Assembly (NCBI GenBank): GCA_903847975.1
Contig: CAINFC010000042.1
Coordinates: 1-64,000, forward strand
Source of the DNA: an uncultured Acidobacteriota bacterium
GTDB taxonomy: Bacteria; Acidobacteriota; UBA6911; CAINFC01
DNA: 64,000 nucleotides
Direction of reading: 5' to 3'
In this document: positions 127 to 58,474 of the stretch, piece by piece
How positions within the stretch are numbered: the first letter of the stretch is position 1
Layout of the letters: the number at the start of each line of letters is the position of its first letter
The notes under the pieces: generated by a model
The model's input: the letters and a program-made list of their open reading frames with translations, nothing else
What the model was told of the DNA's origin: nothing
The model's database searches: none
Program-made: the position numbers and the translations under genes

Positions 127-2478
127 CTATCGCAAAAGAGTCCCGCTGTCGGGCGGATGATCTTTTTCGCTCAGCGCCGCCCAGGCCTCTTCCACCGGCC
201 TGTGGGCCTTTTCGGGAAGCATTCCCTCCGCCAGGTCCATCCACGGTCCGGCGGCCGGCTTCCTTTCCCGGACCCGGCGCAGAGTCTCCTTCGCCACCCG
301 TAGCTTCTCCTCCGGAAGTCCAGCGGGAAGCTCCCTCTCCAGAAAATCGACCAGTCGGGCCACGTGGCTTCGGAAGGCACCGCTGCGCAGATCATCCCCG
401 TTGGCCAGAAAAGCCAGCAGAAGAAGAAGGCTGACCAGAATCCGCTCCTCCTCTTTTTCTCCGGGCATCCCGCCGTCCGGCTCGATCCGTATGCTGAGGT
501 CCATCAGGCGGTCAAAATCCGTCGGCCACGCCGGCAATTCGTTCATACAGGCGGCCGACTCCTCCATCATCGGTAAGGCGCAGCTGAAAGCAACGGGAGA
601 GGGCGGCGCCGCGGCCTCCGGAGCGGAAAGGCAATACATGATTTGCTGCGTCTCCTCCAGCACCATATCCTGGGACAGCCCGAGAGGAACCACCTGGGTC
701 ACCGGCGGCTCGCCGGGCCTGTCTCCGGCCCGTTCCACGACCGCAACCAGAGACATGCTACGGCTCGCCAGGGAGTACTCGCGGCTGAGCGCGGCCAGGT
801 ATTCTTCCTGCCTCGCCGCCGTCCTCCGGCCGATCGCCGAATCGTCCGACTCCAGCCGGGCTTCCGCATCGGTGATCCGCCGTGCGCCCCGCAGCAGTCG
901 CAGTGTCTCCCCGCAGCAGGAATCTGCACCGCTCAGAACGATCCTGCCGGGCGCCTCCTGCGCCGCCGTACTGTAGCGAATCGTTATTCCGTCGTCTGTG
1001 CCGGCGACGCAATCTCCGTAGAGCAGGACCGGGCAGCCCGGAAAGACCGAAGGCGACGGCTCCGGGGACCAACGGCCGCCGGAGGGCTCCAGCCCTTCCA
1101 CCCGGAAACCGACGGCCACGGGACAGGCCACCGAGGCGAAGAGGTCGAGCGCCGCCTGGTCCACGCGCTCGCGGGGCGTCACGAAGCGGCTGATGCCGTC
1201 TGTTTCCCGGGCCAGCAGGGCCAGAAAGCGGTCCTGGCTGGCGCTGCCGATACCCAGGCTGTGCAGGCGGCAGCCGGCCCGGCGCGCTGTCTGCAGGATG
1301 CCTTCCGTCTCGAAGACCTGGCCGTCGGTAAGAATAAAAATGTCCCCGCCCCGGCCGGAGATCATGGCGGCAGCCTCGCGGATTCCGGCGGCCAGCTCGG
1401 TGCCGCCGCGGGCATCGATTTTCGTCAGGAAATCGCGGGCCGCGCGCCGGTTGCGCGGATCCGCTTCTTTCAGCTCCGCGGAGAAAGTCTCGCAACGATC
1501 GTCGAAGGCCACCAGGCCGAACCGGTCCTCCGCCCCCAGCACCGCCAGGCAGGCGGCCAGCGCTTTGCGCGCCTGGGCGATGGGCTCTCCGGACATCGAT
1601 CCGGACCGATCCATCAGAAATACCACATTTCTTGCCGCTTCCTTCCGAACGCCGAAATGGGTCGAGGGAATCAGGGCCGCGAAATGCCTGCGGCCATCCC
1701 CGGTTTGGCCGGAGAGCAGCCGCGTTTCACCCATTTCGGACCGGACGTCCAGAACCAGGTCCCGGTCGGGAAGGTCGGCAGCCGGGGCCAGGATTACGCG
1801 GCGGCTCCCGCAGACGCGGATGGAATGCGAGGGGGAGCCGATCTCTTCGATTCCCCAAGGCACGTCCAGGTCCACTTCGAATCCGATCTGGTGGAGCCCC
1901 CGGGCCGACTTGCGGAAGGCAGGCAGCAGCAGATCGTCGAAGCGGTCCGCGGGCAGCTCCATCTGCAGTTCCTGGTCCTCGAGGAGGATGGCCCTGGCAT
2001 CCGGATGGTAGGAAGGAGCCAGGGTAAAGGGAAAGCGGAACCGGAAGCCGTCGTCACGCAGATCCACACCAGCCAGGATTTCCAGGGCGACCAGAACCTC
2101 TTCCTGCGGATTCAGGTTGCCCAGGCTGAGGTTGACCATCCCGTCCCGATACCCCCGGGCGAGCACGGAGAGGTGACCGGCCGCCACGCCCCGCTCGTAA
2201 TTCTCCTGGGCCTGGCGCGGCGGCTGCAGCTCCGAGTGGGCTTTGAATCCCGGTCCTTGCACTTCGAAGCGGCGCAGCGCCGCATCGCGGGGCAGCAGGA
2301 AGGTATACACCACCTCCAGCGGTTTCCGGGCTGCCGACTGAAACCGGTGCTGCACCACCAGCCGGGCACCGGCAGGCAGAATACGACCTGTCAAAAAGAG
2401 CTGCTGCATGGCCAGCGGCAGCTCGTCCCCACTCCTTGCGCACCGGGGCATAAAAATCCCGGGTTCTTCATTTCTCAT
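127..2478 (-). CDS. VIT domain / von Willebrand factor A domain protein
   Basis: This 783-residue protein has an N-terminal VIT (vault / inter-alpha-trypsin) region, roughly residues 5-150, with the typical stretch about a three-layer 'FLLPRDAALRRFEV' segment. A vWA domain starts near residue 283. The metal-ion-dependent adhesion motif DxSxS is intact (D290-R-S-G-S294), and a later LTDG supplies further MIDAS residues. I see no signal peptide or membrane segment, so the protein is probably cytoplasmic. The start was placed at the ATG at 2478 because that ATG overlaps the stop of the upstream MerR gene by 11 bases; a longer reading back to 2640 would run through that gene. The C-terminal ~200 residues match no domain I recognise. 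The family is known for metal-dependent protein-protein contacts. The target here is unknown. Confidence 0.85.
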   Translation of the reverse strand: MRNEEPGIFMPRCARSGDELPLAMQQLFLTGRILPAGARLVVQHRFQSAARKPLEVVYTFLLPRDAALRRFEVQGPGFKAHSELQPPRQAQENYERGVAAGHLSVLARGYRDGMVNLSLGNLNPQEEVLVALEILAGVDLRDDGFRFRFPFTLAPSYHPDARAILLEDQELQMELPADRFDDLLLPAFRKSARGLHQIGFEVDLDVPWGIEEIGSPSHSIRVCGSRRVILAPAADLPDRDLVLDVRSEMGETRLLSGQTGDGRRHFAALIPSTHFGVRKEAARNVVFLMDRSGSMSGEPIAQARKALAACLAVLGAEDRFGLVAFDDRCETFSAELKEADPRNRRAARDFLTKIDARGGTELAAGIREAAAMISGRGGDIFILTDGQVFETEGILQTARRAGCRLHSLGIGSASQDRFLALLARETDGISRFVTPRERVDQAALDLFASVACPVAVGFRVEGLEPSGGRWSPEPSPSVFPGCPVLLYGDCVAGTDDGITIRYSTAAQEAPGRIVLSGADSCCGETLRLLRGARRITDAEARLESDDSAIGRRTAARQEEYLAALSREYSLASRSMSLVAVVERAGDRPGEPPVTQVVPLGLSQDMVLEETQQIMYCLSAPEAAAPPSPVAFSCALPMMEESAACMNELPAWPTDFDRLMDLSIRIEPDGGMPGEKEEERILVSLLLLLAFLANGDDLRSGAFRSHVARLVDFLERELPAGLPEEKLRVAKETLRRVRERKPAAGPWMDLAEGMLPEKAHRPVEEAWAALSEKDHPPDSGTLLR

Positions 2479-2878
2479 GGTCCTCGTCCTCTTGTTTCTT
2501 CCGTTTGATTTTGAGAGCGAACTCATCGAGTGCCCGAAGCACTTCCCTGTTCCGCCACGGAGCAATATCCTGCCTGACCCAGACGGCCACATCCCCCTCG
2601 AGCGTATAGCACACCCAGGCTTCCGGCTGCGGCAGGGCACTGTGCCGGGGAGGGTGGTCCGGCAAGCGGGCCATCTCCGCCAGAGTCAATCCCTGGGACT
2701 GGCGAGCCAGAACGGTCCGGATCTGCTCCAGATGGCCTCGGCCATAGGTAGCGCCCCGACCGGCCACCTCCGGGCCATCCACCAGGCCCCGGCTGATGTA
2801 AAAACGTATGGTGCGGGCGCTGATCCCGGCTTCCTCGGCAAGTTCCAGCAGAGTCCAGGATTGCTTATTTTCCGGCAT
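2468..2878 (-). CDS. MerR-family transcriptional regulator
   Basis: This 136-residue protein opens with a winged helix-turn-helix of MerR type: WTLLELAEEAGISARTIRFY, followed by the wing and the ISRGLVDGP turn. A second helical region (LAEMARL) follows, and the short C-terminal part is charged and ends in a Lys/Glu tail. There is no Cys cluster for metal sensing, so the effector is unknown. Two ATGs lie side by side (2881 and 2878). GGAGG is four bases from the second, so that start was chosen. The gene is translationally coupled to the VIT/vWA gene by an 11-base overlap, which suggests that this protein controls that gene and itself. HspR-type regulators have a similar size and are a possible relative. 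Confidence 0.85.
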   Translation of the reverse strand: MPENKQSWTLLELAEEAGISARTIRFYISRGLVDGPEVAGRGATYGRGHLEQIRTVLARQSQGLTLAEMARLPDHPPRHSALPQPEAWVCYTLEGDVAVWVRQDIAPWRNREVLRALDEFALKIKRKKQEDEDHEK

Positions 2879-2887
2879 CATGCCTCC

Positions 2888-2924
2888 AGCTTATCAGATT
2901 AAAACAACACTGTCAAGTAGTGTT
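2888..2924 (-). promoter_or_regulatory. Promoter and inverted-repeat operator of the MerR-VIT/vWA operon
   Basis: On the minus strand TTGACA (2911-2916) stands 17 bases before TAAGCT (2888-2893). A perfect inverted repeat AACACT-N7-AGTGTT (2906-2924) covers the -35 box. The 6-7-6 geometry fits a dimeric MerR-type protein, so autoregulation is likely. The -10 box is so close to the ATG that the leader would be nearly absent. An alternative -10 (TTTAAT, 2898-2903) would place the repeat in the spacer, as in classic MerR promoters. Confidence 0.55.
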
Positions 2925-2991
2925 TTATTAAAATGAGCAGAAAACCCGGTTATCGCCCGACGCACTCCCGGGGATCGCAATCCAAAGGCCA

Positions 2992-4245
2992 TTACTCCGG
3001 GAGCCGACGCCAGCCGACGCCCCAGACCAGCGTTCCCAGGAGCAGCGTAAGGGGAACCAGGATCAGAGCTCCGGGCAACGAGCCGGTGAAGTCCGAGATA
3101 GCCCCGACGATGGGCGGGCTGATGGCGTCCCCCAGAATATGGATCGACAGGATGGAAAGGGAGAAGGCGCGGGCCCGGAGGGCCGGGTCGACGCAATTGA
3201 GAATCACCGTGTTGACGGGACCATTATAAAACCACATAAAAAACTGGGCCACGAGCACGCAGAGCATAATCGCCAGGGGATTTTCCAGGTGCAGCGCCCA
3301 CCAGGCAAACAGTGTGGCTGCCGCCATGGACACGGCAGAAAGGGCCAGGTAGGGCTGGCGGGTTCGCCCGCGCAGCCGGTCGGCCAGAAGCCCGCCGGCC
3401 ATGGTCCCCCCCAGTCCGCCAACTACCGTGACGAAACCCACCATGCTTCCCGCCGCTTCCAACCCCATGCCCCGGTAGCGGTAGAGGAAGGTAGGAAACC
3501 AGTCGGCCATAGCCCCGGAGGCGAAGGTGACAGCCGTGTACCCGGCTACGGTGGTGAGATAGGTGCGGTTGCCGGCCAGCGCCGCAAGGGCCCGGGACCA
3601 GCCGGGCGCGGATTCGGGTGGCCGCCGGTCCTGGGCCCCAAGCCCGGGATCGCGGATCAGCAGCGCCAGGAACGCCACCAGGACACCCGGCAGACCCACG
3701 ATCAGAAAAGCGGCCCGCCAGCCAAAGTCTTCTCCCAGGATGCCTCCCAGGATAAACCCCAGGGCGGCTCCCACCGGGATGGCGGTATAAAAAATGGTCA
3801 TGATCCGGTTGCGCCGTCCGGCCGGGTAGAAATCGCTCATCAGCGCCGGGGCTAGCGTGGCATAGGCTGCCTCGCCGATCCCCACCGCGGCCCGGGCGAT
3901 CAGGAAGTGCCAGAACCCGGTCGCCAGCGCTGCGGCTGCAGTTGCCAGGGACCAGAGAAATACCCCGGCGCCGATGAGCCATTTGCGTGAATAGCGGTCC
4001 GCCAGCGCGCCGAACACCGGGCTGGCCAGCATGTAGACGATCACAAAAGCCGAAAGCGGCAGACTGGTTTGGGCATCCGTAAGCTCCAGGTCCGCCTTGA
4101 ACAGGTCTTTGACCGCGCTGGGAACATAGCGGTCCAGGTAGTTCAACATGTTCATGGCCGTCAGAAGCCCCACGGCAAAGGCGGCCCCGGGCAGGACGCG
4201 GCCTTGCTCCGGCTGGCTCCTGGAAGGAGCGATGGAATCGTTCAT
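2992..4245 (-). CDS. MFS transporter (spinster-like)
   Basis: This is a 417-residue, 12-segment major facilitator protein. The N-terminal half contains LNYLDRYVPSAV in the first segment and the loop 2-3 signature GALADRYSRKW. A long cytoplasmic loop (around LIRDPGLGAQDRRPPES) separates the halves. The start was set at the ATG at 4245, directly before MNDSIAPSRS. The longer open frame to 4440 would overlap the divergent promoter region. The substrate cannot be told from sequence. The gene is divergent from the secreted GH36-like glycosidase gene, so uptake of a released sugar or sugar acid is a reasonable guess. Confidence 0.85.
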   Translation of the reverse strand: MNDSIAPSRSQPEQGRVLPGAAFAVGLLTAMNMLNYLDRYVPSAVKDLFKADLELTDAQTSLPLSAFVIVYMLASPVFGALADRYSRKWLIGAGVFLWSLATAAAALATGFWHFLIARAAVGIGEAAYATLAPALMSDFYPAGRRNRIMTIFYTAIPVGAALGFILGGILGEDFGWRAAFLIVGLPGVLVAFLALLIRDPGLGAQDRRPPESAPGWSRALAALAGNRTYLTTVAGYTAVTFASGAMADWFPTFLYRYRGMGLEAAGSMVGFVTVVGGLGGTMAGGLLADRLRGRTRQPYLALSAVSMAAATLFAWWALHLENPLAIMLCVLVAQFFMWFYNGPVNTVILNCVDPALRARAFSLSILSIHILGDAISPPIVGAISDFTGSLPGALILVPLTLLLGTLVWGVGWRRLPE

Positions 4246-6719: not shown

Positions 6720-6939
6720 GTTCTGCCGTCCCCTGCGGGACTTGCGTGTGTGCCACACGGGGCGATATAGCGGAGATCGTACCGTTGTACTCCGTCACGG
6801 CCTTGCAAGGCCCCGCGTAAACCGGAAAACGACTGTTATTCCGGGGCATAAGTCCCGTAAGGGACGACAAGATTATAGCCCGGCAATTCATTGCCGGGTC
6901 GGCTCCTGCACGGGGCAAGTCCCATCGGGACGGCAGAAT
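6720..6939 (-). repeat. Dispersed 220-bp element, copy 2
   Basis: This copy fills most of the 301-base gap 6681-6981. It is bounded by GTTCTGCCGTCCC (6720-6732) and GGGACGGCAGAAT (6927-6939), a 13-base terminal inverted repeat with one mismatch at the very end. Three mini-hairpins of form GTCCC-N3/4-GGGAC lie at 6728-6741, 6852-6865 and 6919-6931. A longer hairpin with arms CCCGGCAA/TTGCCGGG lies at 6879-6898. The copy is inverted relative to the one at 57904 and has the same length. No target-site duplication is visible. Confidence 0.9.
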
Positions 6940-31360: not shown

Positions 31361-31542
31361 GTTCTGCCGTCCCGATGGGACTTGATCTGTGCCTGGAGCC
31401 AACCCGGCAATAAATTGCCGGGCCACAATCTTGCCGTTCCTTGCGGGACTTTGCTGCGGAATAACCGTCCTGTGCCGGTTTACGCGAGGTCTCACAAAAC
31501 GGTGGTCATAGCATATGTGAGTCCCGCCGGGGACGGCAGAAG
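31361..31542 (+). repeat. Dispersed 220-bp element, copy 3 (182-bp form)
   Basis: This copy fills the 308-base gap 31265-31572. Its ends are GTTCTGCCGTCCC (31361-31373) and GGGACGGCAGAA (31530-31541). The CCCGGCAA/TTGCCGGG hairpin lies at 31403-31422 and the three mini-hairpins are present. Compared with the 220-bp copies, about 38 bases are missing from its right half. It has the same orientation as the copy at 57904. Confidence 0.88.
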
Positions 31543-34895: not shown

Positions 34896-34946
34896 GAAGC
34901 TATCCGTGTATTTCGGATGGGAAGAGGGACTTTTCACAAAAAAGAT

Positions 34947-35116
34947 GATGAAGGTGCAAAAAGTCTTCCATTTCACAGAAACACCCCAAAACCGACGAAC
35001 AAACGAAAGCCGTTTTGAGTACAGTCTTCAGACTGCGCGCTGCAAGCAGGTTTCAGCTTGTACCAGGCAAGCTAAAGCTTGTACTCTACACGAAGGAGAC
35101 TTTTTGCACTTTCATC
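34947..35116. repeat. 170-bp segment bounded by 19-bp inverted repeats
   Basis: GATGAAGGTGCAAAAAGTC (34947-34965) faces GACTTTTTGCACTTTCATC (35098-35116) with one mismatch. Inside, GAGTAC (35017-35022) faces GTACTC (35081-35086), CAGTCT-TC-AGACTG forms a small hairpin, and AGCTTGTAC occurs twice. The 538-base gap 34611-35148 holds only this segment, the 79-bp repeat and the DUF11 promoter. Confidence 0.7.
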
Positions 35117-35148
35117 AAAGATGCCGGATTCATTGATCCATGCACGGC

Positions 35149-57747: not shown

Positions 57748-57903
57748 ATCAGCCTCCTGTTCTCGATTGGCAATTTCAATTTTCACCCAAAGAATATAAG
57801 AATCGCCGCAAGAAAGGAAGGTGTCCGGGCGCTCCTGACCTGGAGCGGGGCTTCCGGCCTTGCCTACCGAAAAGCCGGAGCGGAAAAAAGTCTGCCTCAT
57901 GAT

Positions 57904-58123
57904 GTTCTGCCGTCCCGATGGGACCTGCCCCGTGCGGGAGCCAACCCGTCAATGAATTGCCGGGCCACAATCCTGTCATCCCTTACGGGGCTTGCACCCC
58001 GGAATAACAGTCGTGTGCCGGTAAACGAAGGGCCTTCCGAGTCCATGGCGGAGCACAACGGTGCGATATCCGCTATTTTGCCACTTGGGACGCACCCGCA
58101 AGCCCCGTCAGGGACGGCAGAAC
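57904..58123 (+). repeat. Dispersed 220-bp element, copy 4 (reference copy)
   Basis: This complete copy has perfect 13-base terminal inverted repeats: GTTCTGCCGTCCC (57904-57916) and GGGACGGCAGAAC (58111-58123). Mini-hairpins of GTCCC/GGGAC type occur at the left, middle and right. The long hairpin at 57945-57964 has one mismatch (CCCGTCAA/TTGCCGGG). As in copies 2 and 3, the bases AT stand directly before the GTTCTG end. No open reading frame of note is inside. Confidence 0.9.
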
Positions 58124-58134
58124 ACAACAATACG

Positions 58135-58176
58135 GACTTCTTGCACCTCTATCAGAAAAGAGGGCCCGGCAAAAAG
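58135..58176 (+). repeat. 42-bp direct repeat, left copy
   Basis: It begins GACTTCTTGCACC, continues with ATCAGAAAAGA and GGCCCGGCA, and recurs with about eight differences at 58433-58474. The two copies bracket the palindrome-rich block. Confidence 0.65.
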
Positions 58177-58187
58177 TCTCAGAACCC

Positions 58188-58417
58188 CGAAAGGGGCTCC
58201 GGATCACAGCCCGGGGTTGCGCCTCACAGGCGCTACCCCGGGTAGGCGGATTTGTTTAAAACCCAGCCCTGAAAGGGCTGCGCAAACACCTGCCATGGCT
58301 GAATTTTGCGCAACCCTTTCAGGGTTGACGCCAAAGGGTGTCCCTGCCCGGCGCAGGCGCGACGGGCACCAACCCCAGGCTGTGTTACGAAGCCCTTTCA
58401 GGGCTATCCCCAACGGA
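58188..58417. repeat. Palindrome-rich intergenic block
   Basis: A long hairpin lies at 58210-58242: arms CCCGGGGT/ACCCCGGG and GCGCC/GGCGC around a small loop. Several short stems of the type AGCCCT-GAA-AGGGCT and CCCC-GAAA-GGGG follow (for example CAACCCTTTCAGGGTTG and AGCCCTTTCAGGGCT). Such GCCCTTTCAGGGC blocks are known as dispersed repeats in several phyla. With the other repeats it accounts for the whole 789-base gap 57748-58536. Confidence 0.7.
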
Positions 58418-58432
58418 AATTCGATGATGTGG

Positions 58433-58474
58433 GACTTTTTACCGCTTCATCAGAAAAGATGGCCCGGCACAAAG
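58433..58474 (+). repeat. 42-bp direct repeat, right copy
   Basis: It begins GACTTTTTACCGC and shares ATCAGAAAAGA and GGCCCGGCA with the left copy at 58135-58176. Confidence 0.65.

Follow-up and report, generated by a model that had tools for sequence, protein, structure and literature searches.

The window, a 64,000-nucleotide stretch from the draft genome of an uncultured bacterium (G000; 8.13 Mb in 326 contigs, 99% complete), contains at 57904–58123 a repeat that an initial annotation described as a 220-bp non-coding mobile element with 13-bp terminal inverted repeats. The features at this locus and at the related sites in the window are as follows.

57868–57873, unstranded: left target duplication CGAAAA, 5/6 identical to the right AGAAAA
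57874–58153 (280 bp), plus strand: the described element at its full extent, flanked by cGAAAA and aGAAAA
57874–57892, plus strand: outer left terminal repeat GCCGGAGCGGAAAAAAGTC, a decayed GATn6GCAAAAARTC, as far from the core as its counterparts in sister copies
57904–58123, plus strand: core A-B-C-mid-D, the 220-bp element of the initial annotation (sequence match)
57912–57924, plus strand: hairpin A, GTCCC-GAT-GGGAC, which the initial annotation wrongly read as belonging to a terminal repeat; the same hairpin occurs in other phyla
57945–57964, plus strand: hairpin B, CCCGTCAAT-GA-ATTGCCGGG, REP-like; its NTRG foot is on the other strand
57978–57991, plus strand: hairpin C, ATCCC-TTAC-GGGGC
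57993–58098, plus strand: middle region of ~103 bp, specific to G000, with no match among the loci fetched from other genomes
58102–58115, plus strand: hairpin D, an inverted C-like hairpin
58135–58153, plus strand: outer right terminal repeat GACTTCTTGCACCTCTATC (end comparison)
58154–58159, unstranded: right target duplication AGAAAA, which is also the junction with the next element (junction scan)
58160–58451, unstranded: second element of 292 bp, with the same end class around a GC-rich interior unrelated to that of the described element (cccggggttgcgcc...ggcgctaccccggg), AGAAAA on both sides, chained to the described element
34947–35116, unstranded: 170-bp member of the outer family with another interior and 19-bp ends, between perfect duplications AAAGAT (34941–34946 and 35117–35122)
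6720–6939, minus strand: core copy 2, whose outer left end reaches ~6971 (GACGAACCGGCAAAAAGTGG on the minus strand) and whose other end is decayed
31361–31542, plus strand: core copy 3, whose middle is shortened and which has no clear outer ends (sequence match)
1–115, unstranded: one more copy, truncated where the contig begins so that its C-B-A end is left; its outer end GACTTTTTGCCGGGCCATC stops at 115 and is followed by AAAAAA and a GAT-type end

The four copies listed by the initial annotation (1–83, cut; 6720–6939; 31361–31542; 57904–58123) are present at those coordinates, in both orientations, and the copies at 6720 and 57904 share 83% identity over ~219 bp. With at most one mismatch, GGGACGGCAGA occurs 11 times in the window versus 2.6 expected, a count reached in none of 100 shuffles. 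Across G000 the 220-bp query gave at least 48 matches (40 of 193 first-look candidates were scored), with at least 40 copies, and the A-hairpin motif TTCTGCCGTCCCGATNGGGACTTG, with up to three mismatches, has 59 genome-wide matches versus none in the reversed control. Dozens of copies match over the full length and are spread beyond the window, so the idea of an element family stands; no intact gene was found inside the copies, which are intergenic or lie near the 3′ ends of genes, as had been proposed. Repeat copies also lie at position 1 of the window and at many other contig ends in G000 (for example C27, C122, C211, and C310). The repeat probably breaks the assembly at these points, so that the copy numbers would be underestimates. 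The 220-bp repeat has no match in 99 other genomes of the same class and phylum, the window has no Rfam match above the gathering score, and no viral contig contains the exact core motif or the exact outer junction. Rather than standing alone, the 220-bp repeat forms one layer of a dense repeat network specific to this genome.

Two features that had been taken to define the element proved to be internal or variable. The 13-bp repeats are not termini but the internal hairpins A and D, and conservation runs ~30 bp further on each side. Nor is the length fixed at 220 bp, since full elements measure 216, ~283, or ~350 bp. This ladder of 216/283/350 bp proceeds in 67-bp steps, the length of one A-B unit. 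Hairpin A (GTCCC..GGGAC) and hairpin B (CCCGGCAAT..ATTGCCGGG) together form this 67-bp unit, which is lost or gained, presumably when hairpins A, C, and D recombine with one another. GTAG REPs are palindromes of 20–40 bp with a GTAG or GTGG foot; hairpin B is palindromic over 20 bp, and its foot is here mostly NTAG or NTGG. Membership of the CGTC class of REPs was considered for the CCGTCCC motif and rejected: REPs of that class have a stem that nearly always begins with A-T pairs and does not include CGTC (PMC3733652), whereas here CGTC is partly inside the stem. Folded as single-stranded DNA, the element scores far better than its shuffles (z ~ −4), as is expected of inverted repeats. RNAalifold returned a covariation term of +0.37, with two-sided pair changes in 6 of 52 predicted pairs, and this weak covariation leaves a conserved RNA structure unsupported.

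Beyond the core, most copies carry an outer inverted repeat, GATnnnnnnGCAAAAA[A/G]TC, and the consensus ends are GATn6GCAAAAARTC...GAYTTTTTGCn6ATC. Alignment of the flanks gives GATGGCTTCGCAAAAAATCG-TTTTTTCGTCCG on the left of most copies, GATn6GCAAAAAGTGGTTGACGGGTCCG as a second left type, and AACAAAATGAAATTTCGACTTTTTGCGAGATTATC as the right continuation. Measured from the middle region, the ends fall at 126–129 or 59–62 bp on the left and at 49–54 or 116–118 bp on the right. Of 42 core copies, 26 retain a recognisable left end, by a criterion that 7% of random positions also satisfy, and 27 of 39 retain a right end; the outer ends are decayed or missing in the 6720 and 31361 copies.

The initial annotation saw no target-site duplication, because reading stopped at the internal hairpin; at the true ends, the described copy is flanked by cGAAAA (57868–57873) and aGAAAA (58154–58159). 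Three sister copies have perfect 6-bp duplications (L004, AGGAAA; L009, ATTTAA; L017, ATTCAT), and 8 of 24 copies in the 220-bp core family have 6-mers matching at five or more positions, versus 2.4% in the control. Among GATn6GCAAAAA...TTTTTGCn6ATC elements considered as neighbouring junction pairs, duplications are perfect in 15 of 25 and match at four or more of six positions in 24 of 25, where random pairs are expected to match perfectly in 1.4% of cases; an independent scan for 6-bp duplications found them in 9 of 26. Several unrelated interiors share the same outer ends, and their duplications are alike. The interior of 34947–35116 contains gcaagctaaagcttgt palindromes and recurs across the genome.

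Many of these elements are chained. Allowing up to two mismatches, 159 sites carry the junction TTTTTGC-N6-ATC-N6-GAT-N6-GCAAAAA, versus none in the reversed control, and with up to one mismatch it is absent from 99 relatives. Successive chained elements have one 6-mer in common, and in L064 three such 6-mers (AGTCCT) stand in a row. New copies may often insert in the 6 bp between the end of an older element and its neighbour, which would produce chains whose successive members meet at a common 6-bp junction. Isolated, non-chained members also have perfect duplications (34947–35116 in the window, L009, and L078), so these 6-mers are more than the loops of a fixed hairpin.

The described family thus shows three of the traits by which a MITE is recognised: it is short and non-coding, has terminal inverted repeats at fixed boundaries, and has a target-site duplication. 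The earlier suggestion of a non-autonomous mobile element that is MITE- or BIME-like is borne out in both its halves, with an outer layer that is MITE-like (inverted ends, 6-bp duplications, fixed boundaries) and a core built of REP/BIME-type hairpins. We consider it probable that the 220-bp feature is the core of a non-autonomous MITE whose ends lie ~30 bp outside it, which was most likely mobilised in trans by an IS1182-family DDE transposase that makes 6-bp target duplications and which carries a REP-type array. The element appears to be inactive at present.

A candidate for the motor comes from the transposase families searched in G000 (PF01797, PF01609, and PF05598). Outer ends of the MITE type were found at only one of five DDE_Tnp_1 loci, L243; the other four, with other ends or none, were rejected as the motor. 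L243 harbors, at 1297–3180 (contig C220), a decayed 1884-bp insertion sequence with DUF772 and DDE_Tnp_1 matches, the former being the only DUF772 match in G000. This remnant is similar to IS1182, is bounded by GATGGCTTCGCAAAAAAG...CTTTTTTGCGAGATTATC, and has pieces that match the NCBIfam IS1182 model below the model cut-off. It is present in a single copy, interrupted by stop codons and frameshifts, and the 6-mers on its two sides are unequal (ATCCTT/AGAGAA).

IS1182 relatives in 297 related genomes were too distant for comparison (25–27% identity). Among plasmid relatives, ISMno10 and an Azospirillum IS1182 have ends that start with GAY and 6-bp duplications (CGACCG and AAACTC), and one Microvirga relative has a 7-bp duplication. 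The closest plasmid relative, also from Microvirga (38.6%), contains GACGGGGCGGTAAAAAGTC inside a longer terminal repeat and has a 9-bp duplication; beyond the shared core its repeat runs on for a further 18 bp, which makes the end match partial. A Microvirga plasmid IS1182 at L251 2895–4714 has an open 544-aa ORF, 36-bp terminal repeats, and the 9-bp duplication ATGGAGTGG, and bears no annotated feature in its record. In G000, the 6-nt loop between facing ends has received many of the insertions, but at non-chained sites there is no clear palindrome. A member of the IS1182 family, IS1272, targets stem-loops, and duplication of the loop is one branch of the published model (PMC5678879). An IS1182-family DDE transposase acting in trans is the likely motor.

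The outer ends could instead have been moved by a transposase outside the IS1182 family, missing from the assembly or of another family. We regard this as unlikely: the assembly is in 326 contigs, many ending in these repeats, and the searches covered the three families named above, which leaves room for such an enzyme, but the IS1182 remnant has the same ends, and GAY ends with 6-bp duplications occur among IS1182 relatives.

Part of the core also occurs outside G000. One scan found at least 62 stretches of the A-B-C part in metagenome-assembled genomes (MAGs), including those of Verrucomicrobia, Planctomycetes, Hydrogenedentes, Lentisphaerae, Desulfobacteraceae, and Acidobacteria. The best foreign match of the A-B-C array is a Lentisphaerae locus, with 80% over 92 positions. 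In these foreign loci hairpin B stands ~20 nt after A, and an ATAG foot is present in 37 of 48. Within an Acidobacteriaceae MAG (L099 5567–5821), three direct A-hairpin copies with 116-bp spacing alternate with a ACCCCGGG-type palindrome, like the second interior in G000.

These hairpins accompany transposase genes. In 60 Y1-transposase regions from 18 genomes chosen for holding the motif, a near/far comparison internal to this sample placed 21 strict A hairpins within 500 bp of Y1 genes and one further away, corresponding to 0.36/kb within 500 bp of TnpA genes versus 0.004/kb beyond, a 93-fold difference. The associated enzymes score as IS200 TnpA rather than RAYT, and Y-x3-Q-x2-HH is invariant in all 10 aligned TnpA proteins. 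This motif is the signature of TnpA-Y1 subclass 1.2 of Quentin et al. 2018 (PMC6006769), where the subclass is found mostly in Cyanobacteria and Bacteroidetes and is not listed as REP-flanked. Across the 60 regions, a hairpin of looser definition lies near 27 of 45 genes with the signature versus 2 of the 15 that lack it (Fisher p = 0.002, with related genes not being independent). Two loci, L205 (G102:C166) and L186 (G116:C21), contain an IS200-type TnpA of ~150 aa with Y-x3-Q-x2-HH inside A-B double-hairpin arrays; the A hairpins recur with a 67-bp period in L186, and in L205 they flank the gene on either side. A cognate Y1 gene flanked by its repeat, which marks a REPtron, was thus found in other genomes and not in G000. 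There, no intact IS200-type TnpA was found, the alignment query included, and the lone Y1_Tnp, a truncated 81-aa IS200-type ORF with no repeat beside it, was rejected as the present motor. The A-B unit was probably spread by IS200-type TnpA in other phyla, and in G000, where this enzyme is missing, the array would ride inside the MITE.

These arrays around TnpA genes in other phyla also lend weight to a reading in which the 220-bp core itself is a mobile REP/BIME array moved by an IS200-type TnpA, and the outer repeats are simply pre-existing palindromes into which it prefers to insert, REPs landing inside larger palindromes having been described (PMC3733652). We judge this unlikely, slightly more so than a motor from outside the IS1182 family, since G000 has no intact TnpA, the spacing of the left, core, and right parts is constant across dozens of copies, it is the outer ends and not those of the core that the duplications flank, and the same duplications accompany elements that combine these ends with other interiors. 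It is very improbable that host-maintained structural or regulatory hairpins (bidirectional terminators, mRNA stabilisers), spread by gene conversion, account for both the outer junction hairpin and the core. The folding at z ~ −4, the location near 3′ ends, and the fact that the element could in principle be transcribed agree with such a role, but it predicts neither identical 6-mers flanking one element with different 6-mers between elements nor the perfect duplications of the non-chained members, and pair changes on both sides at so few positions (6/52) do not support selection on an RNA fold.

Returning to a REP-type array carried by a MITE, we put forward, as a serious but tentative possibility, that the array belongs to an unrecognised REPtron class, in which a subclass 1.2-type IS200-like TnpA (Y-x3-Q-x2-HH) is paired with its own ~67-bp double-hairpin repeat (a GTCCC hairpin plus an ATAG-footed palindrome) in at least five phyla. 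In G000 the enzyme may have been lost and the repeat captured in an IS1182-type MITE, so that it would have been spread by an HUH and then by a DDE transposase. If the capture is true, it would be a clear case of a REP array switching its vehicle. The analysis also corrects the boundaries of an abundant repeat network in an uncultured bacterium and gives it a testable motor, documents chains of elements that share a single 6-bp junction, and describes a widespread, apparently undescribed double-hairpin repeat linked to an IS200-type enzyme class not reported with REPs.

MITEs that carry a REP are already known, a precedent being QMITE2 of Coxiella burnetii (PMC10969869), and the described element is a variation on them. 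Like QMITE2, it is short and gene-less, with inverted ends, direct repeats, and an internal palindrome comparable to the GTAG type (PMC10969869). Unlike QMITE2, its REP part is an expandable 67-bp array, and its family has several unrelated interiors per set of ends and is chained via shared 6-bp junctions. Within the IS1182 family (IS1272, ISMno10), GAY-starting ends and 6-bp duplications like those of the element are seen in ISMno10 and the Azospirillum member, while two Microvirga elements have duplications of 7 and 9 bp; the element also has the ends of the G000 remnant. It differs in having no transposase and in its inner end sequence, GCAAAAARTC as against ACTGTTGGCGAA in ISMno10, and the remnant, unlike the MITE family, is without matching duplications. 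The A-B repeats resemble REPs, BIMEs, REPINs, and REPtrons in being intergenic hairpins of alternating orientation that, in other phyla, surround a Y1 transposase gene. They depart from GTAG REPs, with their GT[AG]G foot, in the prevalence of ATAG (37/48 foreign loci), and from REPtrons based on RAYT (TnpA_REP) in the extra GTCCC hairpins that flank each REP and in an associated enzyme that scores as IS200 TnpA and is absent from G000. Finally, the hairpin-associated TnpAs share Y-x3-Q-x2-HH with TnpA-Y1 subclass 1.2, and, unlike the account in PMC6006769, A-B hairpins often surround genes with this signature in other phyla.
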